25,121 nucleotides of DNA from a virus. How positions within the stretch are numbered: position 1 is the first letter of the stretch; every line of letters begins with the position of its first letter. The notes under the pieces are model-generated. The model did not search any database. It worked only from the letters and a program-made list of their open reading frames with translations, and was not told the origin of the DNA. The stretch is taken from IMG/VR virus record IMGVR_UViG_3300032092_000226, positions 1 to 25,121 of that record; one strand, 5' to 3'. Both the position numbers and the translations under genes were made by a program. Positions 4,402-23,808 of this stretch are shown here, piece after piece.

Positions 4402-7400
4402 TTAAAATTGTGGTAGAGGGTTTGCTAAAGGATCTGGTGGAGAAGGAAATGCATTGGCTAAAGCCTCTGCTTTTTTAGCTGTTAAATCAAGATAATTAAA
4501 CATTAAATCTAATCTTCCTAAATTTGATTCCATTTTAGTTGTATATTCTTCGTGTATTTTTACCAGAGCAGCTTCAGACTCATTATATTTTTTAATAAGT
4601 TCAACCCTTTCAGAACTTGCTTTTTCTAAATCTGCAATTTTTGACTTAAAAGCATCTACTATTGGAGTTATACCTTCGGTTGAAGTTGTAAATTCTTTAA
4701 TAACAGTAGAAAGACCAACATCATCAACTGTTACCTGCAAAGCTTTTTGTAGTGTTGTTAATTTTGCAGCAACCCCTTCTATTGCTGTTCCAAGGCTTTC
4801 TGATTTTATTTGCGCGGGTATACCAGCAAAAAGGTCTGCAAATTTTTGAACACCACCAGTTGCGCCTATTAATGCTGTTTGAAATCCAGTTTGATCCGCT
4901 TCAGAAAGTTTTGTTCCTTCAAGATTTATATTTCCAGCATTGGTTATTTCACCAATCTTTGCCCTTGGATCATTTAATGTTGCAAGTCTTCTATCAATAT
5001 CTTGAGTTAAAGCGGTATCGCCAGCTTTGGAGGCTGCTTCGCGAATTTGTTTTAAAATTGGTTCAAAAGCTGTTACTGCCGCTCCTCCAATTGTTGCTCT
5101 AGCTTGTTCGTTATTGCTTATTGATTGTGATGTAACATTTTTTTGAAGAGTTCCCGATTGCAAGCCAAGGGCCTTTTGAAGAGCAGTAACGTTTCCTCCT
5201 CCAAGAATTTCTCCAGCAATTTGACTTCTAAAACCTGCTTGTTGTTCTGCTGTTCCAACGCTTTCAAAAAGCCCAGAAGTTTCAAGTTTAGAAATTGTTT
5301 GATTAAATGCCTCTTGTCTTTTTAGAAAAGTATCTCCAGTTGCCATTCCTGTTGCAAGATTGCCTTTTCCTAAATTCTGAATATTTTCGTTAATTGTATT
5401 ATCTTTTCCAGAAGCAAAAGCTTCTCCAATGAGAACACCCGCACGTTCTGCATTTTGTGAAAATGTAGCGTTAAAATTATCAATAAATTGATCAAAAACT
5501 CCTTTTTGCTTTTGTAATGAATCTAAATTTATTTTTTCACGTTGTTCGTTCTCTTTGATAAAAGATTGTGTTTGAGCTTCGACAAATGACTTAATAGAAT
5601 CTGCATTTTTTTGTAACTCTTCATTTAAAGCTCCAACTCCCTCTTCTCCACCTTGTTGCTTGGCCCTTTCTTGCAAAAGAGGCTTTAAAGCATTTTCTGC
5701 ATTTAATAATTCTTTTAAATTTGCTCCTTGATTTTTTTCTGTTGAGTTCTTTAAGCTCTCTAATGCGTCTGTTCTCCTTGTAAGGGCATCAAATAATTTT
5801 GTTTGACTTTTTTGTTGATCTGCTGAAAGAATTGATTTTAAATCGTTAGTAAACCCAAGAGAGTCTGCCATATTTTTTTCAAAATCTAAGGAAGAAGCTG
5901 GCGTAGAGAAAACTTTATCTGTTATTGGTTTTATCTCTCCATCTTTATTACCTCGTTTAATATCTATTTGATTATTAAGTTCTTCCAAAGAAGGAGTTTT
6001 TGTGTTAATGAATTTAGATATTCCAGTAAGAAAATCTTCTTGACCAGTTTTTAAAACTTGAGCAGCCGAAGCTCTTTCCCTTTCTCCCGCTGAAAATGTT
6101 TCAGAGATTCTATCTCTTTCTCTTCGTTTAATTATATTTTGTTTTTCAAAAGGATCTCTTGTCTTTCTTAAATTTTGTTCTGCTACAATGTCTTTTGCTC
6201 CAGAAGCTAATCTGTCTGCACTTTCTGATTGTGATATTCTTGAATTAAATCCACTAAATCCAACTTCATCATTTAATTTTTCAAATTCAGATCTTATACC
6301 TGTAGCAGTAATTTTTATTATTTCGTATCCTTCTTTAAAAGAACTCGCAACTAAACGAAGAGCATTTCTATATCTAAATGCATCATTGTCTAGATCAGGA
6401 ATAGTAATTTTTTCAAGAGCCTCTCTTGAAGTTTGTATCCCCTTAATTTGTTCTGGTAAGCTTTCAAAAGGAGCCAAAAGAGCTTCTATTGCTTTATAAA
6501 TACCGAATCCAGCACCAGCACTAGCAACAAAGGTTGCTAATGCCGCAGCGAAAGCACCAGCTATAGCTGTAACTCCTCCAGCAACAATTGAACTAACAGT
6601 AGCTCCTCCCCCTCCTGCGGCAGCGGCTCCCGCCCCAGCAAGAGGTCTTGCTACAAATTGAGCAGCACGACCTGATACCAATGAAGCCAAACCTTCTTTT
6701 ATCTTTCCAAAAGGAATAAGACTTAAAATAAATCCTGCGTTTGCGACAATATTTGATATATCGCTGGCTTTGCTGGCAAACTCATCTGCCGCTTCATTCA
6801 TTTTTGTAATAGCGTCATTTCTTGCAGTAACTTCCTCTTCTAATTTTTTAACAACATCTGCATTTGCTTTATCTCCCTTTTTCTTTTGTTCTGCTAAGGC
6901 TTTTACCGCTTTGTCTCTAGCATCTGTTTCTTTTTTTAAAGCTTCTTCGTCAAGAGCAAAAGCTCTTGATAAAGATTCAATAGCAGGAATACCAACAAAA
7001 TAATATGCAGTGCTTAAAGCAGTAATAGCTCCTGACATTCTTTGAAATTTTGAAGAAGCCTCCGCACCTTTCTTTCCTATATCGTCTAACCCTTCTGCCG
7101 CTTTTTTTGCGGCTTCTGCCGCTTTTTTTGCAGCTTCTGCTACTTGCTTTGAGGCTTCTGCTGGTGAGGCTTGTAGAAAACCCCCAACACCACCCAATGC
7201 ATAATTAGGAATAAATCCACCAGCCGCCATTCCTATTCCTTTTCTCTCTCTTCCAATAGCGTCCTTTAATCCATTGGGTTCATCTCTTGTATTGGTGACG
7301 GCAACAGGGTTTCCCATTCCATCAAAGTGAGCGCGAATTTTATTAACAGGAATTCCTTTGTTTAAGGAATTGAAGTTTGGGATGAAACCAGATGCGGCAG

Positions 7401-10101
7401 ATTTGGCTTTTTTGTTTTTCTCCTTTCTTGCAAAAAAATCTGTTAATTCGGTTTGGTATTTCCCGTTATCATTAATAATTTTACTAGCAAAAGATTTAAC
7501 AGAATCTTCTGAGTTTGAAACTTTAAAATCATATTTTTTCTTTTTACCTTGTCCTCCAAAAAAGATTTTATCTATATCGCTGTTTGGAGCATCTACATCA
7601 AAATCTGGACCATCTGGAGCAGCTTTATTTCCTCCAACAGCGGCTACGACCGCTGCCTCAAAAGCAGAACCAATAACCCCTTGCAAAGCCCCATAAGCAC
7701 CTTGCCTACCCCCTTCTTTAACACTTGGAACAAATAAATCTTCTATGTCAGATTTTTCAACTTTTTTATTACCTAGTGTGCTGGTAATGGGTCTTGAATA
7801 AGAAACGGATGCCTTTATTACTTCTCTTTTTATTTTATCAGCTATATCAAGTTTTCGACTCTTAGCTCCTTCTAATTCTTTTGTAGGAAAGAGTGGCCCC
7901 CTGACATCAAGAGCTGTAAGGTTAAAATTTACACCAGTATTTTTTCCTTTATCTATCTTAAGTTGTTCATTGATTTGTTCAGTAAATTGTCGCTTATTGG
8001 CTCCTAAAGGTGGAACTAAAAATCCATAAGGACTTCCATCAATACTTAATCTCTTTTCTGCTGTTCCTGTTATTCGTTTGTCTTGTCGTTGCTTTTTCGC
8101 TTTTAAAGCTGACTTATTTTTTATTGCTTGTTCTATCTGCCCTTTTGTAAAGGCTATTTTTGTGTTACCAATCAATATTTTTGACTCATTCTTCTGACTA
8201 GCTTCTTTTAGGAAGGCGCTTAATTCTGCATCTGGATAATCTTCTAATGTATTGCGAGTTTTTGCATAATTCGGAATAAACCCTCTAGCATACAAAGGAA
8301 TAACCGCAGAATCTCTTCCCCCACCAAAGTTTGGAATTTCAACTTCCTGATTATTCATGATGAACTTTTGTCCACCAATTGTTCCTTGACCCATTTTTGC
8401 TTTAACAGAAGAAGAAGCTCCAAGGGATTTGGCCATTGCCTCTTCTTCCTTAAAGCCAGCAGCAAATCTCTTCTTACCTCCTTTATTTGTAAATCCTCCA
8501 CTTGGAGAGAATCCTCCAACTCCAGCTTGAGCAGCGGCAGTAGCAATACTATTAACCAAAGCTTGTTGTTGTGTTAATAAAGCGTTTTGTTGTTTAATAG
8601 CATTAATAACCGCTTGTTCTTTTTGGGCTTGAGTTGTGCTTGTGCTTAAAAGAATTGCTCTTAAATTTGCATCTTGTTGAAGAAGGGCAACAATGCCTCC
8701 TTCGATGTTTTTAATTCTTTCTTGTTCTGATCCAATTTTAAACAAATCAGAAATACCTTCCTTTGCAAACTTTGCAACAACTTGAAATAATTTAAAGAAG
8801 GCAGCGGAAACTAAAACCAATCCCGGTCCAGCAATAAAGGCTCCAATTCCTTTGAAAAATCCTTGAATTAATTTATTACCTTCTTCTGGATCAAAAACCT
8901 TATTTAAAATATCAAGTAATTTATTTGCCCCAGTTAATAGATTTTCAATAACAGGAGCAATGGTAAGCTCTCCTACTTTAGAACCAAGTTCAGTCAACCC
9001 TTGAACCAATTTATTTATTTGAGCAGCAAGAGTTTGGTTTAATTGGGCATTTTTTTCAAAAGCCTCATTAGAAGCTTGTCCAGCAGTTTGAGAAGCTCTA
9101 GCAAAAATTGAAGTTTCGCTAGATAAATCTTTTAAAGCAGCAGAAACAACGTTAATTTGATAAACACCACCAGCAAGTTCTTTAATGGCATTCGCTTGTG
9201 TTGGATCTGAAATGTTTGAAAGAGCCTGTGATAATGCCTGTAATTTTTGAACACCTGTTTGGCTTGAATCAATTTGAACTCCAAGAGCCTTGAGGTCTTC
9301 AATAACTGTTCCTCTCGAAAGTCTTGAGAAGATGGATTTAAAGGCGTTACCAATAACAGCACCACCTCTTGCAGTTGTTTGTTGAACAGAGGTAACTAAT
9401 CCAAGCAACTCATCAAAAGAAACTCCAGCATCTTCAGCCGTAGATCCTGCTCTCGAAAACGCTTCAGCCAAATCCTTAGCAGACACAGCAAAAGCCGTAT
9501 CAACTGCAATTAATTTATTAACTATTTGTTCCGCAGTAAGTCCAGCAGATGTGAAACCGTTAATGGCAGATGTTAAAGCATTAACGGAACCTTCTGCATC
9601 TAATCCAGAAACTCTTGTAAGAATAAGGGAGGCATTTAATCTCTTTACGGTCTCTTCTGCTGACAAACCCTGTCTTGCTAATTCTGAGGCAGCGTCCGCA
9701 ACCGTAGAAAATGTTTGTCCAGTATTTTTTGCAACATCAAAAATTGCATTTTTAAATTGACCCAATTGTTCAGTCGTTCCTCCTAAAATAGATCCAATTT
9801 CTGTTAATCTTTTTTCAACTTCTATGGTTGAAGAAACTAATGCTTTAAAAGCAGTAGAAAGACCATTAATAATAGAAACAGCAGCACCGAAGGCAAACAC
9901 ACGCGCAGTAGCCGCATTGATTGATTTATCAAACTCAGAGGCTTGACCTGTAATTCTTCCTAAAGAATTATTAAAATTATTTACCGCTTTTGTTGGTAAA
10001 TTAATATTACCAAAAGCAGATTGAACCTGTTTCCCAGCAGCATTTATACTTGCTGGATTAAAATTAAGATTAGCGGTAACTGTAACAGGAGCCGTAGCCA
10101 T
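4402..10101 (-). CDS. Tail tape measure protein with embedded nuclease-like domain and IPN[FY] motifs
   Basis: 1899 residues, by far the largest gene here. Tape measures set tail length and are ejected with the DNA. Residues about 115-300 match the TP901-type tape-measure core in style (VAKNTGQTFSTVADAASELA, then repeated Gly/Ala-rich helices and a GGAVIGNAFKSIFSRLSRG stretch). Hydrophobic segments lie at about 411-447 and 1151-1211 (Ala/Gly-rich), as expected of a protein that contacts the inner membrane. Residues about 970-1000 are a Lys/Ala heptad helix. The rest of the C-terminal third is long charged helix ending in a proline-rich tail. Unusual are four I-P-N-[FY] motifs (residues 589, 609, 907, 964) and, between the second and third, a PD-(D/E)XK-like signature (E815, P832-D833-F834-D835, D858-F859-K860). 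At about 0.15 nm per residue the length would suggest a tail of up to about 280 nm, less if the inserted region is globular. Confidence 0.93.
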   Translation of the reverse strand: MATAPVTVTANLNFNPASINAAGKQVQSAFGNINLPTKAVNNFNNSLGRITGQASEFDKSINAATARVFAFGAAVSIINGLSTAFKALVSSTIEVEKRLTEIGSILGGTTEQLGQFKNAIFDVAKNTGQTFSTVADAASELARQGLSAEETVKRLNASLILTRVSGLDAEGSVNALTSAINGFTSAGLTAEQIVNKLIAVDTAFAVSAKDLAEAFSRAGSTAEDAGVSFDELLGLVTSVQQTTARGGAVIGNAFKSIFSRLSRGTVIEDLKALGVQIDSSQTGVQKLQALSQALSNISDPTQANAIKELAGGVYQINVVSAALKDLSSETSIFARASQTAGQASNEAFEKNAQLNQTLAAQINKLVQGLTELGSKVGELTIAPVIENLLTGANKLLDILNKVFDPEEGNKLIQGFFKGIGAFIAGPGLVLVSAAFFKLFQVVAKFAKEGISDLFKIGSEQERIKNIEGGIVALLQQDANLRAILLSTSTTQAQKEQAVINAIKQQNALLTQQQALVNSIATAAAQAGVGGFSPSGGFTNKGGKKRFAAGFKEEEAMAKSLGASSSVKAKMGQGTIGGQKFIMNNQEVEIPNFGGGRDSAVIPLYARGFIPNYAKTRNTLEDYPDAELSAFLKEASQKNESKILIGNTKIAFTKGQIEQAIKNKSALKAKKQRQDKRITGTAEKRLSIDGSPYGFLVPPLGANKRQFTEQINEQLKIDKGKNTGVNFNLTALDVRGPLFPTKELEGAKSRKLDIADKIKREVIKASVSYSRPITSTLGNKKVEKSDIEDLFVPSVKEGGRQGAYGALQGVIGSAFEAAVVAAVGGNKAAPDGPDFDVDAPNSDIDKIFFGGQGKKKKYDFKVSNSEDSVKSFASKIINDNGKYQTELTDFFARKEKNKKAKSAASGFIPNFNSLNKGIPVNKIRAHFDGMGNPVAVTNTRDEPNGLKDAIGRERKGIGMAAGGFIPNYALGGVGGFLQASPAEASKQVAEAAKKAAEAAKKAAEGLDDIGKKGAEASSKFQRMSGAITALSTAYYFVGIPAIESLSRAFALDEEALKKETDARDKAVKALAEQKKKGDKANADVVKKLEEEVTARNDAITKMNEAADEFASKASDISNIVANAGFILSLIPFGKIKEGLASLVSGRAAQFVARPLAGAGAAAAGGGGATVSSIVAGGVTAIAGAFAAALATFVASAGAGFGIYKAIEALLAPFESLPEQIKGIQTSREALEKITIPDLDNDAFRYRNALRLVASSFKEGYEIIKITATGIRSEFEKLNDEVGFSGFNSRISQSESADRLASGAKDIVAEQNLRKTRDPFEKQNIIKRRERDRISETFSAGERERASAAQVLKTGQEDFLTGISKFINTKTPSLEELNNQIDIKRGNKDGEIKPITDKVFSTPASSLDFEKNMADSLGFTNDLKSILSADQQKSQTKLFDALTRRTDALESLKNSTEKNQGANLKELLNAENALKPLLQERAKQQGGEEGVGALNEELQKNADSIKSFVEAQTQSFIKENEQREKINLDSLQKQKGVFDQFIDNFNATFSQNAERAGVLIGEAFASGKDNTINENIQNLGKGNLATGMATGDTFLKRQEAFNQTISKLETSGLFESVGTAEQQAGFRSQIAGEILGGGNVTALQKALGLQSGTLQKNVTSQSISNNEQARATIGGAAVTAFEPILKQIREAASKAGDTALTQDIDRRLATLNDPRAKIGEITNAGNINLEGTKLSEADQTGFQTALIGATGGVQKFADLFAGIPAQIKSESLGTAIEGVAAKLTTLQKALQVTVDDVGLSTVIKEFTTSTEGITPIVDAFKSKIADLEKASSERVELIKKYNESEAALVKIHEEYTTKMESNLGRLDLMFNYLDLTAKKAEALANAFPSPPDPLANPLPQF
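7092..7154 (-). repeat. 21-bp tandem repeat inside the tape measure gene
   Basis: Three consecutive 21-base units starting at 7092, 7113 and 7134. The first two differ only at the next-to-last base; the third has drifted. In frame they encode a 7-residue Glu/Ala/Ala/Lys/Lys/Ala/Ala unit, a heptad that forms a charged alanine helix. Because the unit is a multiple of three, copy number can change without breaking the frame and would slightly alter helix length. Confidence 0.8.
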
Positions 10102-10121
10102 ACACTACATTACACTTGATG

Positions 10122-10988
10122 CTATGTAATCTTATCTTCGGGTTTCATATTTTCTAAGCCACCCGCCCTTTTTACCTTTTCTCTAATGCTAAAGTCTTCA
10201 TCATCTAATGATTTTGAGTTTTTTTCACTTTCTGTCCATTCAAATATCTTGATGGGATTATCTTTAATATCATTAGGCATTTTATAACTATTTTTCAATT
10301 TATTTATTAATACATTACCGTAAACTAATAAGTTTTTTTGAAAAACTGTAAGGTCCAAACCTGATTTATTAAAAATCTTTGAAAGATCTTCAAAAATAAT
10401 AAAGAAATCAAAAAAGTCACTACTGAAAGCCGCCCTAAGAAGAATATCCCTATCACTTAATAATGAAAACTTATCAAAATATTTTATAAAGCACTTATTT
10501 AAGTCTTCTTCAGTTATTGGTTCTTTGAACTCTTTATCATAAAAAAGAATATCAGAATAAAAAACTGAAGCCATCTTTTTGGAAACATAAGCTTCCTTTG
10601 AAGCTAAAACAAAAGATCGTTTCTTAAAATTTAAGATTTTTAATTCATTTTCGTCTTCTTCAATTTGTTTTAACAAACTTTTTTTAATATGAACGTCTTC
10701 AACCTTTGGCAAAAATCTATTTTTGCTCTTTACGGAAAATTCAAGACTTTTAATAGTTTCATCATTTTCCTTGGTCCAAGAACCGCTTTCGTAAGCCACT
10801 TCTAAAAGTTCTTTTTCAGACTTTAATCCAATAATGTCTGCTTGTCTTTCAAAACCTTCCTTATGCAAAGACTGCTTTAAAAAATCTAGAATTAAAGGGT
10901 GTTTGAAATAACATTCAACACCCTGCTCTCTTAAAATAGAATAGCCTTGTATTATTTCAGCGAGAGCCGCTTGATGAAGATCTTTCAT
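10122..10988 (-). CDS. Probable second tail assembly chaperone (T-like position)
   Basis: 288 residues, charged and largely helical, with no signal peptide or catalytic motif. It lies directly before the tape measure and after another helical protein, the place where siphophages encode the G/T chaperone pair that coats the tape measure during tube assembly. Lambda-type pairs make the longer protein by a -1 ribosomal frameshift; here the two genes instead overlap by ATGA (10985-10988), so stop-start reinitiation is the simpler route. The C-terminus is highly charged. No sequence family was recognised; the call rests on order, size and helical character. Confidence 0.55.
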   Translation of the reverse strand: MKDLHQAALAEIIQGYSILREQGVECYFKHPLILDFLKQSLHKEGFERQADIIGLKSEKELLEVAYESGSWTKENDETIKSLEFSVKSKNRFLPKVEDVHIKKSLLKQIEEDENELKILNFKKRSFVLASKEAYVSKKMASVFYSDILFYDKEFKEPITEEDLNKCFIKYFDKFSLLSDRDILLRAAFSSDFFDFFIIFEDLSKIFNKSGLDLTVFQKNLLVYGNVLINKLKNSYKMPNDIKDNPIKIFEWTESEKNSKSLDDEDFSIREKVKRAGGLENMKPEDKIT

Positions 10989-11755
10989 TCATCCTTTAAA
11001 CTTTCAATGAGTTCTTGGTTTTCGTTTTCCTCTTTTTCGAGAAAGTCTAATTGTTCCTTAACTGTTTTTTGATCTGAGCCAAGGCCATTATACCAAATCG
11101 CAAAAGTTCTACCAATTGTAGAAGAAGCTGATTTAATTATCTCAGCCTTTTTCGCAATATCCAAATCTTCTGAATCGTATTCCTCATCAAGAATTTTTGA
11201 ATAAAAGACTTCTTTTTCCTTTAAGGTTGCTCCTTCAAAGAGTTCAAATTCTCCTATTTTTGATCCAACGTTTTCTTTATAAAAAGAACAGAACAGTGCC
11301 AACCATTTAATTAATTTTTCTTGAGCCTTAACGTCTGCTGTTTGGTTAAACATTGAAGAAAGATTTGTATTATATTCAACCAATGTTTTTTGAGACTTTG
11401 CAAGAAGTTTTTTGGCCTTATCTAATTTTTGCTTTTGCTCTTCTGTTAAGTCTTCACTCTTAGAAGAAGAATAGAATTGAACAATTCTTTGTGCATCAAA
11501 GATGTTTGTAATTTCATTTGTGATATTCTCTTCTGTAGACTTTCCAAGTGCGCCACCGAGATCGGAAATCTTTTTCTGCACCATTGCTTTCGACAAAAAT
11601 CCAGCATTTAAATATTCATTAAATTTGGATGCATAATAAAATTCTGCATTTTCAACCATTGAGTTATTGGGCTTTTTAAGAACAATTTCTGCCTTTTCCT
11701 TTTTCTTGGAATTTGGAACATTGAACGAAACAGTAAAAGTATACAAATCTTTCAT
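10985..11755 (-). CDS. Probable first tail assembly chaperone (G-like position)
   Basis: 256 residues. The N-terminus has a short beta segment (YTFTVSFNVPN, AEIVLKKP) followed by helices rich in Lys/Glu and a coiled-coil-like stretch around residues 100-140 (EEQKQKLDKAKKLLAKSQKT); the last 30 residues are strongly acidic. Phage G-type chaperones often begin with a small beta domain that resembles the tube protein, which fits. The ATG at 11755 follows an A/T-only leader containing a (TATAA)n repeat. The stop overlaps the next start as ATGA. A T-TTA-AAG heptamer lies just before the stop in the correct phase, but the -1 frame meets TGA two codons later, so it cannot create a fusion with the next gene. 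Confidence 0.55.
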   Translation of the reverse strand: MKDLYTFTVSFNVPNSKKKEKAEIVLKKPNNSMVENAEFYYASKFNEYLNAGFLSKAMVQKKISDLGGALGKSTEENITNEITNIFDAQRIVQFYSSSKSEDLTEEQKQKLDKAKKLLAKSQKTLVEYNTNLSSMFNQTADVKAQEKLIKWLALFCSFYKENVGSKIGEFELFEGATLKEKEVFYSKILDEEYDSEDLDIAKKAEIIKSASSTIGRTFAIWYNGLGSDQKTVKEQLDFLEKEENENQELIESLKDE

Positions 11756-11775
11756 ATATTATATTATATTATATA
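11756..11775 (-). promoter_or_regulatory. A/T pentanucleotide repeat in the leader of the chaperone pair
   Basis: On the minus strand the bases directly before the ATG at 11755 read as overlapping TATAA units with a five-base period, providing several TATAAT-like hexamers in a row. It could act as a weak -10 region array or simply keep the start site unstructured for a host that does not use Shine-Dalgarno pairing. No -35 element or Bacteroidota TAnnTTTG box is evident, so promoter function is only a possibility. Confidence 0.25.
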
Positions 11776-11791
11776 GTTTTTATGATAAAAA

Positions 11792-12325
11792 TCAAGCACT
11801 AGCTAAATAAAAACCATTAGAAGAAAGAATATATAATCCAGTATGTCCAGCGAGAACAGTTGGAGAACCTGTTTCTGTTTTTAATGTAAAAAACAAATTA
11901 TTAAGATCACCATAATCTTCAAAAATCATTGCATCAATAAAAACATCACCAGAAGGTATTAACAAATTATTGGCAATCAAAGTTTCATTTATTTTATATG
12001 ACATTCTATTTTTTTGACCAGTTCCATAAAAGGCATGAAATTCAAGATCAAATGGTTCATTCTTTAAATAACCACCAACTAGATTCATATTTTGATCAAA
12101 GATATATCCACTATATCCAGAAAAAGCAACAACAGTTTGAAAAGGCTCTCCATAAGGAGAACCTATATATCTTATATCTACACCCTCTTCATTACGAATA
12201 CTGTGATTTTCCCAAGAACCAATTCTGCCGAATTTTAAAGAGAAGCCGCTATTTGGAACTTTAATAGTTATATCAGCTTTTACTGAAAAATTTTGATTAT
12301 GATATCCAAAATATGCACCTGTCAT
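11792..12325 (-). CDS. Small beta-rich protein of unknown function between tail tube and chaperones
   Basis: 177 residues from the ATG at 12325. A longer frame begins with a TTG at 12355, but that codon lies inside the terminator hairpin after the tail-tube gene, so the internal ATG (MTGAYFGYH) is the credible start. The protein is rich in Gly, Tyr, Phe and Asn with many short alternating strands (VKADITIKVPNSG, FSGYSGYIF, FIDAMIF, GLYILSSNGFYLA) and no catalytic motif, signal peptide or membrane segment. Placement just after the tube terminator and before the chaperones suggests a virion part needed in fewer copies than the tube, for example a tail surface or minor tail protein. I do not recognise the family. 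Confidence 0.6.
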   Translation of the reverse strand: MTGAYFGYHNQNFSVKADITIKVPNSGFSLKFGRIGSWENHSIRNEEGVDIRYIGSPYGEPFQTVVAFSGYSGYIFDQNMNLVGGYLKNEPFDLEFHAFYGTGQKNRMSYKINETLIANNLLIPSGDVFIDAMIFEDYGDLNNLFFTLKTETGSPTVLAGHTGLYILSSNGFYLASA

Positions 12326-12340
12326 ATTGATTAATACACG

Positions 12341-12369
12341 AAAAAAGGGGCGCAATTTGCGCCCCCTTT
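12341..12369 (-). terminator. Rho-independent terminator after the tail-tube gene
   Basis: Reading the minus strand, an 8-bp GC-rich stem (GGGGCGCA/TGCGCCCC core, 12347-12365, flanked by A/T pairs after one mismatch) closes a 3-base loop and is followed immediately by six T residues (12346-12341). This is a textbook intrinsic terminator placed 20-50 bases after the tube stop codon and just before the next start at 12325. Confidence 0.88.
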
Positions 12370-12389
12370 AATTTATATTATCGGTTCTC

Positions 12390-13571
12390 TTATTTGGTAT
12401 AAACAATTGGATTTGTAACATTTCCAGCAGTCGTAACACTTGGATAAGAACCGCTCATGAAAATGCCAGCAGTTTGTGTATTAGCTCCACCGATTTGAGC
12501 AGAGAACTGTAAATCAACAGTTTCGTTACCGTCAAGATCTTGCGAGAAGTTTTGAGAATCAAGAATTGCATCCTTTAAGATGTAAATAAGTCTGCTTGTA
12601 GTATTGTCACATCTATCTCTAAGAGTAATTTTAATATCTCTCTTTTCTTGACCAGCACAACCAGTTAAGAGGGCTGCAACAGAACCCCGTGTTTGATTAG
12701 CAGTAATTGCGCTAATTGCAACGGTTGTTTCGATTGGGAAGGTTAACACACGCGCATAGGGAAGAGGAGATCCAAGTTCGTTAAGAGCTTCTCTAGCCAA
12801 TGGAACCGAAATAGTAACGGACTGAGGGTGAAGTGTTGCAAGATCAACGCCACCGATTCCAAGAGGAGTATTTGAAGCTAAATCGATAGTAATTTGACCA
12901 TCACGAAGAACATCAACATTTGAGTTGCCAGTATCTGGAACGGGAAGCTTAAGCGTTCCAAGATCTGCCTTTCCTCCGTTCGAAGGTTGAATAGAGGGAT
13001 TGGCAAGGCCAGAATAAGCACCTGTATAGAATTCAACATTACCACAATCAAAGGAAACTGTTGCACTTGGAATTTCTCCAACAGAAAGATTAACCGTATA
13101 TTCTGTAATGAAAGCATTACCAAATCCCACAACATCAACATCGGCGGGACTTGCCCAAGAATCAGAATCAAAGGCATCATTACCCTCTGCAACAGTAGCA
13201 ACAAAAATGTTTCTTTCCTTAAATCTTGGATCTTCTGTTAAGAAGCCAGAAATTCCTTGAGCGTTTGGTATGGCGTTTCCAGTAATCGAATTTTTAACTT
13301 CGAAACCTAAGTGTGCTTCATTTTCTCCATCTGTTAAATAGTAATCAAAAGAACAGGTTGGAGTAAGATCGGAATTAATCAAAGAACCGATTCTCGCAAG
13401 CTGACCGAATTCTCTAATATCCTGTCTAGATCCAGCGATATCGACATCGAAAGTGAAATTGTTAATTCTGTGAAGCTGAGTTGCATTGATGCCGCTGTTT
13501 GCATGAACGAAAACACCTGTTTTTGTAACGTAAACGGCTTTACTTGCTGAAAGTTTTCTTAGACGGGCCAT
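12390..13571 (-). CDS. Probable major tail tube protein
   Basis: 393 residues. Position (after the neck genes, before the chaperones and tape measure), size, beta-rich composition and a dedicated strong terminator all fit the tube protein that polymerises into the tail shaft. The N-terminus (KAVYVTKTGVFVHANSG, FTFDVDIAGSRQDIREFGQLARIG, then LTPTCSFDYYL) has the look of tube proteins, which open with a beta hairpin and a sheet describing membership of the ring. The middle, from about residue 200 to 280, may be an added surface domain. There is no second sheath-like gene nearby, which argues for a non-contractile tail. Base composition is GC-richer than most neighbours, as in the capsid gene, consistent with high expression. 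Call is from context and pattern, not a recognised motif. Confidence 0.72.
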   Translation of the reverse strand: MARLRKLSASKAVYVTKTGVFVHANSGINATQLHRINNFTFDVDIAGSRQDIREFGQLARIGSLINSDLTPTCSFDYYLTDGENEAHLGFEVKNSITGNAIPNAQGISGFLTEDPRFKERNIFVATVAEGNDAFDSDSWASPADVDVVGFGNAFITEYTVNLSVGEIPSATVSFDCGNVEFYTGAYSGLANPSIQPSNGGKADLGTLKLPVPDTGNSNVDVLRDGQITIDLASNTPLGIGGVDLATLHPQSVTISVPLAREALNELGSPLPYARVLTFPIETTVAISAITANQTRGSVAALLTGCAGQEKRDIKITLRDRCDNTTSRLIYILKDAILDSQNFSQDLDGNETVDLQFSAQIGGANTQTAGIFMSGSYPSVTTAGNVTNPIVYTK

Positions 13572-13623
13572 GATAAGAGGGTAGGTTATTAGTCTTTACA
13601 GTATATTCTATATGTTGGGAAAA

Positions 13624-14490
13624 TTAAACGCGAGGGAATCTATAAGTCGAAATATCAAAATCAACCAAGCCAACTAAAACATCTTTATCGTATTTATTTA
13701 AAATAACTGAACTATTTATCTTTGATGTATTTACGCTTTCTATGAATGATTTAGATGAGTAATTTGACATAAAAGTATTATAAGAATATGGAAAACTCTT
13801 AACATCAAAAAATCTTCCATATGGAAAATTTTCAAAAGGAACTCTTGTTATACATTCTCTAGCTGTATCCGCCAATAAAGACAAGATATTATCAAGAGTA
13901 TAATTATCATAAGACATTACGATAACTTGAATCCTAGAAATTGTTTCCTCTTCTCCTCCAAAAGAAAATTCATTATTTTCATTATTGACGAATCTAACAA
14001 AACACGCTGGTAAAATATAAGTTTTTTCGTCTCTTTTATTTGTTTTTGAAAATAAGTTTGTGCTTGAAGTTTCGGCAGAATTGATAAAATCGCTGGTTAC
14101 AATAATACTCTCCTCATCATCTTCTGTGATGTAGGTATTTACCTCCTTTATTGTATTGTTGGCTGTAATTGTTAGTCCAGTGCCAGATGCTTGTGGAAAA
14201 ATAACTCTGCCATTATCGTAGTCAATATATAAATTGTTAGCATTTCCAGAAATAAAAGATCCGTTTACAAAAATTCCAGAATTGGGAACATCAACAGATT
14301 GATCGGCAACTAACTGTTTAAACTTTCCTTGATAAGCAACATAAGAAGAAGGAACGTCAACAAACGAACTAACATATTGAAAGGAGTTAGATTCATTAGT
14401 GGCGTAAGCTTTAAATTTAGAATCAATTAATTTATGTTCAAGCCACAAATAAAAAGAAGAGGTTAATTCTGTTGCAAATTGAGCCTTCAT
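13624..14490 (-). CDS. Neck protein, tail-terminator candidate
   Basis: 288 residues. It sits between a gp10-like tail-completion gene and the tube gene, which is where the tail terminator (the ring capping the tube) is normally encoded. It is longer than the usual 130-200 residues. The N-terminal half contains a beta segment (GIFVNGSFISG, LYIDYDNGRVIF, GLTITANNTIKEV) that may be an inserted domain; the C-terminal half (ISRIQVIVMSYDNYTLDNIL, ADTARECITRVPFE) alternates strand and helix as terminator folds do. It overlaps the upstream stop by ATGA, implying coupled translation. Alternative: another neck or head-completion protein. Confidence 0.5.
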   Translation of the reverse strand: MKAQFATELTSSFYLWLEHKLIDSKFKAYATNESNSFQYVSSFVDVPSSYVAYQGKFKQLVADQSVDVPNSGIFVNGSFISGNANNLYIDYDNGRVIFPQASGTGLTITANNTIKEVNTYITEDDEESIIVTSDFINSAETSSTNLFSKTNKRDEKTYILPACFVRFVNNENNEFSFGGEEETISRIQVIVMSYDNYTLDNILSLLADTARECITRVPFENFPYGRFFDVKSFPYSYNTFMSNYSSKSFIESVNTSKINSSVILNKYDKDVLVGLVDFDISTYRFPRV

Positions 14491-15077
14491 TTAGTAACGT
14501 TTCTTTGAAATTCTTTTAATATTGTTGACATGTAACTTCTATTTGAAAATCTGCCGCCAACAGTTGTTTTTGTTTGAATACCTTTTCCAGAACGAGAAGA
14601 AGGAGATTCTTTGTAAACATAGCTCCCTAAACCAGCAATTCCCTTCTCAATACCATCTAACCAACTTCTGCCGGGATTCCAAGGAATGGGAGAAATGTTA
14701 TAAAGAGCCTCTTTAGTTGGCGCGGCTATTTCAATTTTGAAATTTCCATTAGTCAATGCCTTAACTGAAAAATTGATTTTATTCCTTAAAAGTTGTTTTA
14801 CTGGTTGGGTTGGATCTGAACCTGATTCAAAACCAATAAATGAAAAAAGGTTTCCCTTACCACCTAGAGTTGATGAAGAATTTGAAGCAAGAACACCACC
14901 ATCTATTTCTACTGTAACAGGATCGTTTTCATATGCTTGAATCATTTGCTTTTGAGCATCATTAATCTTATTTTGCCATTCTTGTTTTATTAAAGAAGAA
15001 ACGATGGATCTATTCCCACCTTCTGTCATAGAAGCTGTAAGTGCGGCTTTATTAATATTTACTGTTATTTTTGCCAT
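14487..15077 (-). CDS. Tail completion / neck protein, HK97 gp10-like candidate
   Basis: 196 residues. It begins with a strand-helix (ITVNINKAAL, IVSSLIKQEWQNKINDAQKQMIQAY). Its C-terminus carries a Gly/Ser-rich loop followed by a basic helix (GGRFSNRSYMSTILKEFQRN), a pattern seen in HK97-gp10-type proteins that join the finished tail to the head. Order supports this: connector, head closure, this gene, terminator candidate, tube. The start overlaps the previous stop by one base (TAATG) and its own stop overlaps the next start (ATGA). Assignment to the family is by eye and moderately secure. Confidence 0.55.
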   Translation of the reverse strand: MAKITVNINKAALTASMTEGGNRSIVSSLIKQEWQNKINDAQKQMIQAYENDPVTVEIDGGVLASNSSSTLGGKGNLFSFIGFESGSDPTQPVKQLLRNKINFSVKALTNGNFKIEIAAPTKEALYNISPIPWNPGRSWLDGIEKGIAGLGSYVYKESPSSRSGKGIQTKTTVGGRFSNRSYMSTILKEFQRNVTK

Positions 15078-15514
15078 TACGATGTTCTCTGTAGCATCAC
15101 TTGAACGTAAGTAATATTAAATGGACCTATTGGACTCTGCTTCGAATCCACTTTGTAGTTTTCTCCATCAACCTCTATAACAGATGCTCTCTTAATTATT
15201 TCATAATCAGCCTTTGCAATTTTGATTCTACATTTGTCATTAGAAGAGGGAAGCATTGTATCTGTCATCCTTTCTTCCTCAGATTGTGTTGGATAATAAA
15301 TTCTTGCCTCTATTGGATATTTAACCTTTACTATATCTGAGACAACTATTGATTGGGCTTTAGTTCTATTATACAAAGGATTATAATCAACATCGGAACC
15401 AACAGATGTTGCTTCCTCAACAAATGCGTAAATGGTTCCTTTAAATGTATCATGAATATCGACAAACAAGCTGTCGATAGAAGCCTTTTCTGCATCTGTA
15501 AAAATAGAAGCCAT
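15077..15514 (-). CDS. Head closure / stopper protein candidate
   Basis: 145 residues. The N-terminal helix (DAEKASIDSLFVDIHDTF) is followed by a compact beta barrel with a closing pair VIEVDGENYKVDSKQSPIG and ITYVQVMLQR. This 'x-V-D-G-x-x-Y-x-V' hairpin near the C-terminus is typical of SPP1 gp16-like stoppers that seal the portal channel. The size matches the family. Translation is coupled by TAATG overlaps at both ends, to the connector upstream and the completion protein downstream. Confidence 0.55.
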   Translation of the reverse strand: MASIFTDAEKASIDSLFVDIHDTFKGTIYAFVEEATSVGSDVDYNPLYNRTKAQSIVVSDIVKVKYPIEARIYYPTQSEEERMTDTMLPSSNDKCRIKIAKADYEIIKRASVIEVDGENYKVDSKQSPIGPFNITYVQVMLQRTS

Positions 15515-16029
15515 TATTCAATACCTTGTCTTGGATGGAAGTAATCTAAACCTGCTCTAAACTCTATACCATCTTCTCCAGCCAATGAATTGGGAGAACA
15601 CTTAGTTGAATTATACTGAAATATTAAATTATCAAGTCTATCTTGAGCATCTCTCGCAAGATCTCCAAAGCTTTTTGAAATCGAGACTTTAGAAACCTTT
15701 TGAATAGAAGAGTCTCCTTCTCTAACCATCGTTATTGAATCAGCAAAAGAAGCAGAACTCCAAGTCAATCCTCTAAGAGTTTCTCTAGCAGATCTCTGAT
15801 AATAATCAATTTCATACATAGACATAAAAATAGACTTTTCTTCTGCAAGAAGACCACTTGGCCCAATTCCTCCAGTTGCATCTATATAAAAATCTTCATG
15901 AGTTAGAGAGTTTAAATCTCCAATATGGGTTCTAAGCCATCCAGAAACATAAGTAACAGGAAACCTTCCAGTATCGTCTGGAAAGCTATAAGTTACTATA
16001 TCAGAAGCTATTGAACCCAACTCATTCAT
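15514..16029 (-). CDS. Head-tail connector (adaptor) candidate
   Basis: 171 residues. First full-size neck gene after the capsid terminator. It has an N-terminal strand and helix region (SGWLRTHIGDLNSL) that may be the YSGWL-like start common to adaptors, a helix-rich middle (EEKSIFMSMYEIDYYQRSARETL) and a C-terminal helix (GDLARDAQDRLDNLIFQYN). A helical protein of this size next to the stopper gene fits the ring that docks under the portal (gp15/gp6 class). No catalytic motif. The family is inferred from order and helical content. Confidence 0.5.
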   Translation of the reverse strand: MNELGSIASDIVTYSFPDDTGRFPVTYVSGWLRTHIGDLNSLTHEDFYIDATGGIGPSGLLAEEKSIFMSMYEIDYYQRSARETLRGLTWSSASFADSITMVREGDSSIQKVSKVSISKSFGDLARDAQDRLDNLIFQYNSTKCSPNSLAGEDGIEFRAGLDYFHPRQGIE

Positions 16030-16044
16030 ATAGCAATATTACAC

Positions 16045-16428
16045 TTAAATAGTATCAATCAAATTTCTAATACGCTTTATAGCGGGATCATTCATGTCAG
16101 GACCATTTTTTGGCCCAGAAATGTTTTGCCTTGATCTTCTAATAAAATCAGTAAAAGATTGCATAAGCTGTTTTCTTAAAACATTCTCTCTGGAAACAGG
16201 AGTAATTCCAACCCTAGAAGCTAAAACGCGAAGTTCGTCCAATGTCATTTCAGAAAGCTTCTTTTCAAAAGTCTCTGAATTAGTTGTTCCATATGGATTA
16301 GATCTTCCAGTTCCAAGGATTTCCTCAAGAGCTAGAATTTCCTTTTCCTGTTCTTCCCTTGTCTTGATTCTATTTTTCCCGTCAGTGATTTCAAGGTCAA
16401 TTAATTCTTTAGTTTTATCTTTCTTCAT
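16045..16428 (-). CDS. Small SAP/LEM-like (helix-extended-helix) protein
   Basis: 127 residues. Residues about 62-97 read as a SAP/HeH/Rho-N-like fold: a helix starting MTLDELRVLASRVGI, a turn, then a second basic helix VSRENVLRKQLMQSF. The N-terminal 60 residues are a charged, probably helical or disordered stretch, and the tail (SGPKNGPDMNDP) is flexible. Such small HeH/LEM-type proteins are often encoded between capsid and connector genes and may touch DNA or the head vertex. It is the first gene after the capsid terminator. A TATAAT at 16440-16435 lies six bases before the ATG and could allow a near-leaderless transcript, but no -35 box is visible. Confidence 0.55.
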   Translation of the reverse strand: MKKDKTKELIDLEITDGKNRIKTREEQEKEILALEEILGTGRSNPYGTTNSETFEKKLSEMTLDELRVLASRVGITPVSRENVLRKQLMQSFTDFIRRSRQNISGPKNGPDMNDPAIKRIRNLIDTI

Positions 16429-16467
16429 ATACTTATTATAGGTTAAAAATGCTTGTTTTTAAAATAT

Positions 16468-16497
16468 AAATAACCCACCTAAAAAGGTGGGTTATTT
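16468..16497 (-). terminator. Hairpin terminator after the major capsid gene
   Basis: A perfect 13-bp inverted repeat (arms 16468-16480 and 16485-16497, core AGGTGGGTTATTT) with a 4-base loop lies about 30 bases after the capsid stop codon. On the minus strand it is followed by the T-rich ATATTTTAAAAAC rather than a clean U tract, so termination is probably partial, letting some transcripts reach the neck genes. Confidence 0.75.
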
Positions 16498-16528
16498 ACA
16501 AACAATAGCTTTTTAATAACTAATATTA

Positions 16529-17656
16529 TCAGACGATAATACCAGTCAACACACGATCTTCGATAACGATACGACCTTCTTGGATCTTACCATACCAACC
16601 GAGTTTGTTTTGACGAGAAACGAACTGATCATCAACTTGAACGCTGACTTCAGTGGAGACACCTTCTTCACGAACGGCAGGTCTGATGAGAGACTCTTTC
16701 GATCTATCGATACCAACGATAATTTCTTGAGTATCTTCGAAAACGGCTCCTGCGATAGATGTAGATCCAGCAAGTGCATCAAAGATCTTGTTGTATCTCT
16801 GACCAATGCCCATTTCGAGGATTTCGATAATACCGATTCCGAAGAAGGAAGGAAGACCGCCTTGGTTCATGAGTTGCTTACGCATTTCTTCGGTAGCAGC
16901 AATCGAGGTAGCGCCAGAATTAAGAGTAGAACCTGACCGAGTGTTAACAGGATTGTAGGCCATGTTACGAAGCTCTTCGACCATTTCTGGCGACATAAGC
17001 AAGTCAGTAACTCCAACCATTGGACCACCAACAGGTGTTCCACTTGAATACGAACTCCAGAGACGCTTGGAAAGCGTAATAAGACGATTAAAATCATCAA
17101 GTTGAAGTTGATCGGCGGCTGTTGAACGAATAATGTGATTACCAGCAGCAGATGCTCCATTAACTCTAGTATCAGCAGCAATAAGAGCGCCTAAAAGTTG
17201 GTTAATAGAAGTTTTTTCTTGCTTAAGAAGAAACTCTTGGGCCATTCTGGTGAAGACCTTGGAGATGTCGATGCTTCTACCCTTGCGAAGATACTTCTTA
17301 TCAAGAGAGATCGCGCTATCAAGCGTATAAGTCTTGAATTTAAGCTCGTCATGAGCGGGATAGAGTTCGTTGGTGCTAAGACCACCAGCAACAGACTGCG
17401 AGTGAATTCTGATATAATCTTCATCAGTCACATCGTGGAATAAGTCCAAGGGAATAGAAAGATTATCATCTTCGCTAAATGCTAAAGTCTGATAGAGGCT
17501 GGAGACAGTTGGTGCGCTGTTAATAACTTCGCTAATCACTGGACCAACTAATTCCGCAACAGCGGCTCTAGCTTCTTCCGCGATAAGCTTATCTTTCGAA
17601 GCACAAGCTTTGATAAGCTCAACTTGTTCGGGAGTTTCTTGAATACGAATTTTCAT
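16529..17656 (-). CDS. Major capsid protein, HK97 fold
   Basis: 375 residues, in the fixed order portal, protease/scaffold, decoration, capsid. The pattern fits HK97-type capsid proteins: an N-terminal helix (residues 1-45) that could act as a scaffolding arm, an E-loop-like segment (HDELKFKTYTLDSAISLDKKYL), a long spine helix (VFTRMAQEFLLKQEKTSINQLLGAL), a P-domain segment with VTDLLMSPEMVEELRNM, and the closing strand VIEDRVLTGIIV. DNA here is clearly GC-richer than the flanks and uses CGT for Arg where neighbours use AGA, as expected of the most abundant virion protein. The gene is followed by a terminator hairpin. The A/T-rich leader has no Shine-Dalgarno motif. Confidence 0.87.
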   Translation of the reverse strand: MKIRIQETPEQVELIKACASKDKLIAEEARAAVAELVGPVISEVINSAPTVSSLYQTLAFSEDDNLSIPLDLFHDVTDEDYIRIHSQSVAGGLSTNELYPAHDELKFKTYTLDSAISLDKKYLRKGRSIDISKVFTRMAQEFLLKQEKTSINQLLGALIAADTRVNGASAAGNHIIRSTAADQLQLDDFNRLITLSKRLWSSYSSGTPVGGPMVGVTDLLMSPEMVEELRNMAYNPVNTRSGSTLNSGATSIAATEEMRKQLMNQGGLPSFFGIGIIEILEMGIGQRYNKIFDALAGSTSIAGAVFEDTQEIIVGIDRSKESLIRPAVREEGVSTEVSVQVDDQFVSRQNKLGWYGKIQEGRIVIEDRVLTGIIV

Positions 17657-17682
17657 TTTTAAATTATATTAGTTGGTTAAAA

Positions 17683-18294
17683 TTAGACGGAGAATTTAAG
17701 TCTAGCATAGGGACCAGCAGCAAAATCAGTGTGTTGCTGGCTTTCTCTAAGCCCAGTTCCGATAAAGGTTCCGACTCTAACGGCGCTTTGAGCAGTCGTC
17801 AAAGAACCGAAGGCCACGCCAGTAACTTTTCCATCAGCAGTCACAACGGCAGCTTGTCCAACACTTGGACAGACACCACCAGCAAGACCGCGAACATTGA
17901 TTTCGACAACACCTCTGGATGCGACAGGAACCGCTTCGCCCGAAAGGACGCATTGAAGGTCTTGTTTCTTCTGAGGATAATAAAGAAGTTTTTCACCATT
18001 TTCATCAACTTCTCTAACGTCTCTTAAGATCATACCGATAATGAGACCAGCATCGCCAGTTCCAGCGGTAGTAACCTTTTGAGGAACAAAGGGATATTGA
18101 GATTTAGCATTACCAAGGGCGTTAGCAAAAGGACCGAAGTTTCCGTATTCCACGGGATCGAGGGTCAAATTGCCAGCAGAAACCTTGACGAACGTTCCGG
18201 CCTCGCCGGAATTTGAATCGAAAGAGTAACCATTGATTACATCTGTCTCATTAATGCTGCGGTAGGGGAGGAGGCGTGTGATTTGTTGTGCCAT
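17683..18294 (-). CDS. Probable capsid decoration / head-stabilising protein
   Basis: 203 residues, immediately upstream of the capsid gene (26-base gap), where lambda gpD-type or other decoration proteins are encoded. It is beta-rich with high Gly/Val/Ala content (GTFVKVSAGNLTLDP, GLIIGMILRDVREV, GVVEINVRGLAGG, QAAVVTADGKVTGVAF) and no helix-rich scaffold character, catalytic motif or signal peptide. Base composition is the GC-richest of the window (33 of 60 in 17881-17940), again consistent with a highly expressed virion part. Alternative: a minor head protein or vertex protein. No specific family recognised. Confidence 0.6.
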   Translation of the reverse strand: MAQQITRLLPYRSINETDVINGYSFDSNSGEAGTFVKVSAGNLTLDPVEYGNFGPFANALGNAKSQYPFVPQKVTTAGTGDAGLIIGMILRDVREVDENGEKLLYYPQKKQDLQCVLSGEAVPVASRGVVEINVRGLAGGVCPSVGQAAVVTADGKVTGVAFGSLTTAQSAVRVGTFIGTGLRESQQHTDFAAGPYARLKFSV

Positions 18295-21894: not shown

Positions 21895-23808
21895 TTATAT
21901 GGTAAAAGGAACAAAAGTAGAGACCACCCTCTTTTCTTCCTTAACTTCTAAAGAATCAAAATAAACCTTGGCCCACCAGTTTAAAAGAACTAATGATGAG
22001 TAAAGATCTTTTCTTGGTCTATTTGGACCTCTTTGCTTTCTCATATGTAATGGCAAATCAAATGATTGAGTTCCTTGTGGACTTGTTGTAACCTCAATAT
22101 TTGAGGTTTGAATTTTTGTTAACTCAATATTTTGCTTACAATAGTCGATTAGATCGACCTTACAGGCGTCATCGTTAGAGGCTCTATATTCTGGCTCCCA
22201 TTTTAAATCTTTAATTGGAACATCTGCCTTACTTTGTTCTTCAAAATGTTTATCCCCCAAGAAGGCTCCAGAAGCAAAAATGATTCTTTTATGATCAATA
22301 CTTGCTTGAAGCATTTCGTTTGCAATTCTAATCCAAGAGGAGGAGGGATTTCTTAAAAAACAAATCTTATGCTCAGATTGATTTATTGAGCTTTTCATTC
22401 TTAACAAATCAGCATGATAATCTTCTGATTTATCAAAGTCTCCTTCAACATATTTAATTTCAATTTTTGAATTTTTAAATAATTCACTTTCGTTGCAGGA
22501 ACTGATAAATTGCAATCCTCCGTTTCTATCCCCAACTATTCCAACAACGTTGAAATGAGTATAAAGATAATGAAAATATGTCATATATGTTTTTAACTGT
22601 TGACCAGTAAGGGCAAATGAATGAACAATTGCTACTTTATTTTCTGATCTCAACAATTTACCAACATGCATACTAAAGAAGTCTGCCTCTTCACTTTCTG
22701 ACCAAGAAGGGTCAAAAGCTAATATATATTCGTCCGTAGGGTTTCCAATAATTTCTACAGCAGGGAAATCTCCTTCAGCAACAGTGCATTGCATCATTCG
22801 ACTCATCTTAAAGTAGGAGTCTCCCTCGTCTCCAAATTGAGCGCCAAACTCTCTATCAAACTGAGCCTTGCTCATTGTCGCTTTAGCTTGATTTAAAAGG
22901 TTTTGATCATAAAGTTCTGGAGGAGCTAAATCATAAGACAATTGAAAAACGGATCTATATGCCGAAGATGATCCTATTTCTTCGTCAAGACCATTTAGTC
23001 TTTGAGAATCGTGTTGACCTAAAATAAGATCAATAAACTGTTTATAAAGTTTATACATGTATTCAAACTTAAAAGAAGGAGATGATAGCAAAATCAATTT
23101 ATTGTTTGGCCAAGCAAATCTCTCTTCTTCTGTCATTTTATCTTGAGCAATAAGTTTTGTTTCAAGATCCCTAAGTTCTTTTCTTTCTGTTGGATTTTCA
23201 ATAACACCCAAGAATGGCATGATAACTTCGTTAAAGATCTTCTCTGGCATTGTTAAAAATTCATCAATAACAATTATATTAAATCTAAAACCACGAAGAC
23301 GCTCTCCGTTTGCTAAAGGCAAGGCTATCGCTCTGCTTCTTCCAATTTTTAAAGTCCATTGATCTGTTCCTTTTTGAATTAAATTTTTAGAACCAATGCA
23401 ATCCATTGCTAGTTTTGCAGACGGTTTCGAAAGAATATCTTCAATTTTAGTAAAAATCATTTTAGACTGTCTAAATGTTCCAGCCAATACCCCAATGTTA
23501 CAGCCTTGATTAAACATTAATTCTAAAATTAAATAAATAGCAGTTGAGAATGTTTTTGACATACCACGCGCCAAAACGTGCATCGTATAATCAGAAACAA
23601 AAAGAGCTTTAATTAAAACAGCTTGAAATGGAAAGAGTTTAATTCCAAGAAAAAACTCTGTTGCAAATGTTATGTTGTTTCTTAAAAAACGGTATAACAA
23701 TACAGAGGCTTCGTCTTGTTCAAGCCAGCCTTCCTTTTCTAAAATTTCTGAATTAATAAGAGTTGCTGAATAATTCAACCTTTTTCCTTGTTTGCCTTTA
23801 TCCCACAT
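21895..23808 (-). CDS. terL: Terminase large subunit (ATPase-nuclease)
   Basis: 637 residues; powers DNA translocation into the prohead and cuts the concatemer. ATPase domain: P-loop ARGMSKT at residues 80-86, Walker B IIVIDEF with D182-E183, and coupling motif LILLSSPS with S242-S243. Nuclease domain (RNase H fold): D366 in ILAFDPSWS, D427 in GIVGDRNGG, and a C-terminal acidic group near D546-D547/D552. The P-loop is atypical: Ser replaces the Gly normally preceding Lys-Thr. The C-terminus is basic (HMRKQRGPNRPRK). The start overlaps the upstream nuclease gene by 11 bases, suggesting coupled synthesis. The motif set makes the identity secure. Confidence 0.95.
   Translation of the reverse strand: MWDKGKQGKRLNYSATLINSEILEKEGWLEQDEASVLLYRFLRNNITFATEFFLGIKLFPFQAVLIKALFVSDYTMHVLARGMSKTFSTAIYLILELMFNQGCNIGVLAGTFRQSKMIFTKIEDILSKPSAKLAMDCIGSKNLIQKGTDQWTLKIGRSRAIALPLANGERLRGFRFNIIVIDEFLTMPEKIFNEVIMPFLGVIENPTERKELRDLETKLIAQDKMTEEERFAWPNNKLILLSSPSFKFEYMYKLYKQFIDLILGQHDSQRLNGLDEEIGSSSAYRSVFQLSYDLAPPELYDQNLLNQAKATMSKAQFDREFGAQFGDEGDSYFKMSRMMQCTVAEGDFPAVEIIGNPTDEYILAFDPSWSESEEADFFSMHVGKLLRSENKVAIVHSFALTGQQLKTYMTYFHYLYTHFNVVGIVGDRNGGLQFISSCNESELFKNSKIEIKYVEGDFDKSEDYHADLLRMKSSINQSEHKICFLRNPSSSWIRIANEMLQASIDHKRIIFASGAFLGDKHFEEQSKADVPIKDLKWEPEYRASNDDACKVDLIDYCKQNIELTKIQTSNIEVTTSPQGTQSFDLPLHMRKQRGPNRPRKDLYSSLVLLNWWAKVYFDSLEVKEEKRVVSTFVPFTI

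Follow-up and report, generated by a model that had tools for sequence, protein, structure and literature searches.

The window analysed here is the whole virus record IMGVR_UViG_3300032092_000226, a stretch of 25,121 bases that may be a fragment of the genome. Its minus strand carries an open reading frame (ORF) of 1899 amino acids, which by family homology and length is identified as a tape measure protein (TMP). Fifteen PHROG profiles match this ORF, nearly all of them named tape measure (best 4.4e-40), and its conserved N-terminal region has at least 546 relatives in IMG/VR. TMPs set the length of the tail and open the membrane; they are built into the tail tube and adjoin the DNA path in the tail. 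In the middle of the protein, between two GFIPN motifs and flanked on both sides by hydrophobic segments, lies a variable module holding a nuclease-like domain (Table 1). A preliminary description made from the sequence had placed a PD-(D/E)XK nuclease-like domain here, between two IPN[FY] motifs, and both motifs as well as all five residues that it had named (E815, D833, D835, D858 and K860) were read from the translation at the positions claimed. The Gly/Ala-rich segment downstream of the module, which bears a likeness to a glycine-zipper membrane segment, is possibly a membrane-spanning part.

Table 1. Features of the TMP gene and of its nuclease-like module; positions refer to the window
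Feature	Residues	Position	Strand	Basis or conservation
TMP ORF, 1899 amino acids		4402..10101	-	open reading frame; PF10145 (PhageMin_Tail) E=6.7e-26; PHROG TMP families
Conserved N-terminal TMP region, PhageMin_Tail homology	123-311	9169..9735	-	PF10145 match
Hydrophobic segment upstream of the module	414-448	8758..8862	-	Kyte-Doolittle scan, peak 1.93
GFIPNY motif 1, N-side boundary	607-612	8266..8283	-	identity with nearest relative ends inside
Variable module holding the nuclease-like domain, without histidine	613-904	7390..8265	-	translation
Nuclease-like domain, LVP strand through the helix after DxK	about 680-900	7402..8064	-	44- and 88-sequence alignments and AlphaFold2 models
E815, motif I (GxxFE helix)	815	7657..7659	-	100 E and 3 D of 103 copies
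D835, motif II (DFDV)	835	7597..7599	-	98 of 103 copies
D858, first residue of (D/E)xK	858	7528..7530	-	86 D and 16 E of 103 copies
K860, Lys of (D/E)xK	860	7522..7524	-	103 of 103 copies
GFIPNF motif 2, C-side boundary	905-910	7372..7389	-	sequence
Spacer module, ..NP.AVTN.RDEPNGLKDAI.R..	911-961	7219..7371	-	recurrent in related TMPs
GFIPNY motif 3	962-967	7201..7218	-	sequence
Gly/Ala-rich hydrophobic segment downstream of the module	1166-1203	6493..6606	-	Kyte-Doolittle, peak 1.89

Used by itself as a single-sequence query, the module gave no match among viral contigs, cultured phages, Pfam, PHROGs and the PDB. Relatives were reached by searching with the whole TMP first and with alignments after. 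The whole-TMP search of IMG/VR returned four relatives, whose alignment keeps the E, the D and the DFK, and a search with this alignment led to 52 loci, all of them in TMP-like ORFs. A scan by the GFIPN motif itself added 120 further stretches, and an iterated hidden Markov model (HMM) run on the collected ORFs yielded 103 copies of the domain in 100 ORFs, all TMP-like and all from uncultured viruses. A scan of 84,980 species genomes gave no relative. Six TMPs (L181, L186, L192, L193, L203 and L222) carry the same domain with an altered boundary motif, for example GNLPRYA, GHIPRYA or GYMPKFA.

Members of the family are just 15-34% identical to the window sequence, and the four residues proposed as catalytic are near-invariant among the 103 copies (Table 1), together with G811 (103 copies) and F814 (102 copies). 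The PDFD motif of the preliminary description survives in part: D835 is the relevant aspartate, because D833 is kept in just 49 of the copies. The loose E-D-(D/E)xK pattern occurs in 91 of 92 family modules, as against 16.7 in shuffled sequences, with E-D spacings clustering at 20-22 residues and D-(D/E) spacings at 22-25. As in the PD-(D/E)XK superfamily, the glutamate sits on a GxxFE helix and is followed by D and by (D/E)xK; judged from the alignment, the order, the spacing and the alternation of D and E are those of PD-(D/E)XK nucleases, and an active site of this type in the module is supported. The dN/dS ratios of module pairs lie between 0.04 and 0.36; the domain is therefore maintained by purifying selection. 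This pattern bears on an alternative in which the variable region would be a structural or receptor part contacting inner-membrane proteins of the host, the conserved acidic residues and the lysine being structural. TMP segments do determine the use of inner-membrane partners and sensitivity to SNIPE (PMC13190303), and variability fits host adaptation. However, among members so dissimilar in sequence, the near-invariant positions besides Gly and Phe are exactly residues of catalytic type, and we hold this alternative to be very improbable.

Since the HMM favours copies with the motif, a control set was taken, chosen neither by module nor by motif and composed of the 80 TMPs that come closest to the window when the N-terminal sequence is the sole criterion. 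In 76 of them the TMP is not cut short, and 62 of these 76 have the domain by HMM. A divergent E-D-(D/E)xK segment, judged by eye, is present in a further 8/76, while 3/76 have the motif with other modules and in 3/76 none was recognised.

Related phages swap the module, and they do so at the GFIPN motifs. The nearest relative, L002 (IMGVR_UViG_3300027973_000210), is 91.7% identical to the window in DNA over 9.8 kb, from 8268 to 18091, and the match stops within the GFIPN codons; the modules of the two share about 32% protein identity. A chimeric assembly behind this break is unlikely, because the identity with a second relative, L003, whose DNA match is weaker (73.6%), ends at the same base. 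Where two TMPs are at least 85% identical upstream, their identity breaks off between -5 and +12 residues from a motif in 27 of 30 pairs (median 0). In the set assembled without regard to the motif, the break falls near one in 15 of 36 pairs, where 4% would be expected; the 36 pairs, which form 15 groups, are not independent, and in nine of those pairs the pattern applied finds no motif. For several pairs, rapid divergence of the ordinary kind was discarded as an alternative to exchange, since blastp detects no similarity whatever between the modules that occupy one slot. Across the motif-bearing ORFs 524 copies of the motif were counted, up to nine per ORF, with the consensus A-x-G-[FY]-[IV]-P-N-[FY]-A, and these copies split the central part of the protein into modules. 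One of these, a small spacer of about 50-80 residues, recurs in related TMPs (one cluster of 71); in the window it lies between the last two GFIPN motifs and has a conserved DEPxG segment. The motif itself may be a processing site, an anchor in the tube lumen or a recombination point.

The domain thus delimited belongs to an extensive pool of modules that sit between IPN[FY] motifs and can replace one another, a modularity that the preliminary description had not remarked upon. TMPs that are 88-94% identical upstream hold, in the same slot, modules without blastp similarity to one another: an SNase-like one in L103 (PF00565, E=0.014, below the cutoff), and others with SRSDI...VESK in L123, ARLDF...GEAK in L177 and FDF...EVRTRK in L124. 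The constant N-terminal part can be up to 99-100% identical with differing modules behind it. For instance, L090 and L147 share 99.5% identity upstream and have a different module, and L170 possesses one module more than L084. The modules are internal, since most complete ORFs continue for some 800 or more TMP residues beyond them. Some modules of the pool show canonical-looking motifs, such as FE...ALDF...VEAK; module 3 of L165, module 1 of L125 and module 0 of L123 are of canonical look. A nuclease-like ExK pattern is found in 25 of 117 other modules versus 5.0 in shuffles, whereas the rest of the TMPs shows no enrichment (30/836 versus 45.9).

Modules of other kinds also occur in these TMPs. 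That of L157 (ORF start 3938, plus strand) contains the head domain of a tRNA nucleotidyltransferase/poly(A) polymerase (PF01743, E=2.9e-14), apparently followed by an HD-like segment. Seven P-loop modules, which belong to no clear family, have an invariant YDSD start, the sequence GPxGxGKST and the same bounding motif; among them are residues 636-793 of L148, 918-1073 of L014 and 1264-1446 of L004. The TMPs of L171, L082 and L011 contain protein-kinase-like modules, recognised by a G-x-G start, DLHGxNYxxN and I-D-x-G. In L004, L011 and L157 nuclease-like, P-loop, kinase-like or PolyA_pol modules are combined, PolyA_pol alone passing its curated cutoff.

Besides another type of enzyme, discussed below, the main rival to a cargo function of these modules is a homing-type nuclease cassette, selfish or domesticated, which would lie in frame in the TMP gene, cut the TMP alleles of co-infecting phages and be copied in by recombination. 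Such a cassette would account for the sharp boundaries, given that the breaks in identity sit at the module edges; moreover, TMP genes are frequent targets of homing endonucleases, and an unrelated nuclease can replace one at its site (PMC10448857). However, the ORF has no internal stop and no sign of an intron, and an intein or an HNH element was rejected because the module contains no histidine, a residue that the HN of inteins and an HNH nuclease both require. In addition, the motif also delimits P-loop, kinase-like and poly(A) polymerase modules, which show no nuclease signature, and truly empty sites are rare, amounting to at most 3 of the 76 control TMPs. On these grounds a homing origin appears rather unlikely. 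Another alternative is that the domain handles the DNA of the phage itself, inside the virion or at ejection, for example by trimming or releasing the DNA end that is held beside the TMP. The established position of the TMP beside the DNA path and the near universality of the domain in the TMP clade of the window would fit such a role; nevertheless, a housekeeping step needs no hypervariable, unrelated modules in one slot, and this role strikes us as improbable.

We favour instead, with a probability of about 60%, a reading in which the TMP carries an interchangeable, virion-borne, nuclease-like cargo module that is exchanged at GFIPN motifs, its activity and its delivery being what we infer from the residues and from their carrier. 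The module would be a nuclease-like enzyme that depends on metal, has E-D-(D/E)xK as its active site and uses chemistry of the PD-(D/E)XK type. During infection the TMP would be expelled into the cell envelope and the membrane and would carry the enzyme as far as the site of entry or the cytoplasm, and the delivered enzyme would cut nucleic acid of the host, of host defences or of competing elements. Exchange at the GFIPN motifs would allow one TMP frame to bear different enzymes, which, as proposed, it may do because of an arms race over the target, with changing targets or defences. In line with such a path, TMPs get as far as the inner membrane of the host while injection is under way, and that of lambda has been labelled there (PMC13190303). 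A contractile injection system, moreover, has an effector related to TMPs whose nuclease is active (PMC11126660). In a wider version, for and against which we see the balance as even, the TMP would be a polymorphic carrier throughout an extensive clade of tailed phages known only from uncultured material, and the string of exchangeable enzymatic modules in its middle part, swapped at GFIPNF and delivered with the genome, would form an undescribed class of virion effector system. These modules would mostly be divergent nucleases, with kinase-like, P-loop, SNase-like and nucleotidyltransferase ones among them.

Several points weigh against the cargo reading, and the first of them concern the fold. 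AlphaFold2 gave a predicted local distance difference test score (pLDDT) of 78 with 44 sequences; with 88 sequences, for residues 676-902 (227 amino acids), the pLDDT was 84 and the predicted template modelling score 0.77. The result is an alpha/beta domain. E815 is part of a helix in it, D835 falls at a short strand, and D858 and K860 fall at a further strand with a helix behind it. One short helix separates the acidic strands, and the remaining strands precede the Glu helix. Both models lack the strand that follows the Glu helix in the canonical alpha-beta-beta-beta-alpha-beta core, none being predicted ahead of the Asp, as well as the last strand of that core, none being predicted beyond the last motif, and in both of them the strand order differs from the canonical one. 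Searches by Foldseek and VIA-align returned nothing usable for either model and listed no PD-(D/E)XK family, a result that excludes nothing, and no profile or sequence match to the domain was obtained in Pfam, PHROG, NCBIfam, PADLOC or the PDB sequences. Members of the PD-(D/E)XK superfamily often fail to match one another. When compared by hhalign with two canonical-looking modules of the pool, the domain aligned at motif I, without significance. Weak matches to FtsE (by phmmer), to lectins and to other unrelated chains were discarded as chance.

Of the PD-(D/E)XK nuclease-like domain proposed in the preliminary description, a discrete, conserved E-D-(D/E)xK domain inside the TMP stands, and the fold is unsupported so far; the domain might belong to the superfamily in permuted or strongly diverged form. 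Alternatively, it may be another enzyme or a metal-binding fold that is no nuclease and has acquired its E, D and D/E-x-K independently, as the non-canonical topology, the absence of a structural neighbour and the presence of kinase- and transferase-like modules in the same pool might suggest. On the other hand, the order, spacing and D/E alternation of the residues fit PD-(D/E)XK, and other modules of the pool have the canonical-looking motifs cited above, so that we give this alternative a small probability. The nuclease-like cargo reading faces further difficulties. Several copies of a globular domain of about 220 residues must pass a narrow tail tube, and the module would therefore need unfolding or stretching; the cargo role is itself a reading of the modularity; searches of cultured phages found no relative of the domain; and part of the copies was gathered via the motif or the domain itself, which biases those counts.

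Elsewhere in the window, beside the terminase, the gene at 23798-24724 (minus strand) encodes a C2H2 zinc finger fused with a nuclease domain of the ERCC4 type; its matches to PF02732 (E=1.8e-4) and PF00096 (E=4.2e-4) both fall short of the curated cutoffs.

Among known systems, the protein Tme of the contractile injection systems of Streptomyces davawensis (PMC11126660) is likewise TMP-like and has an active nuclease effector domain. In Tme, however, this domain is C-terminal, EndA-like and His-dependent (DRGH motif) and belongs to a bacterial injection system, whereas the phage module is internal, histidine-free, bracketed by GFIPN motifs and situated in a phage gene set. Effectors of the Sle1 type (PMC13277306) resemble the modules in their diverse, exchangeable and reconfigurable functional domains. 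The polyvalent proteins of phages and conjugative elements (Iyer et al. 2017, PMC5512222) are also virion-borne, combine several unrelated enzymatic domains and are thought to be injected; the word 'tape' is absent from that paper, whereas here the carrier is the TMP and one repeated motif separates the modules. TMPs with embedded peptidoglycan hydrolase motifs, as in mycobacteriophage TM4 (cited in PMC13277306), also hold an enzymatic domain or motif inside the TMP, although its target is the cell wall and its active site is not of nuclease type. In ICP1, a nuclease sequence inside the TMP gene varies between relatives as well (PMC10448857), but there it is an HNH nuclease in a spliced intron, while the module described here is continuous with the reading frame. 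Polymorphic toxin systems likewise have a constant part, used there for delivery, together with an exchangeable domain, which in those systems is a toxin at the C-terminus; the modules described here are internal. In the open-access literature, no description of GFIPN-bracketed modules was found.

To our knowledge, the enzymatic cargo of phage TMPs has so far consisted of cell-wall hydrolases, the hydrolase motifs of TM4-type TMPs have not been described as exchangeable cassettes, and bacterial contractile injection systems were the only source of a protein related to TMPs that has an active nuclease. A survey of mosaicism in phage proteins noted sequence mosaicism in TMPs and confirmed no genuine recent case (PMC10684548); the window and its relatives supply recent cases, with a boundary defined to the base at a defined motif. 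The GFIPN motif is a simple handle for finding many more modules, and there is a fair chance that the TMP modules that it brackets, akin to other virion-borne exchangeable effectors, deserve a class of their own. If the modules are indeed delivered and active, the tails of these phages would themselves carry interchangeable enzymes directed against hosts or competitors.

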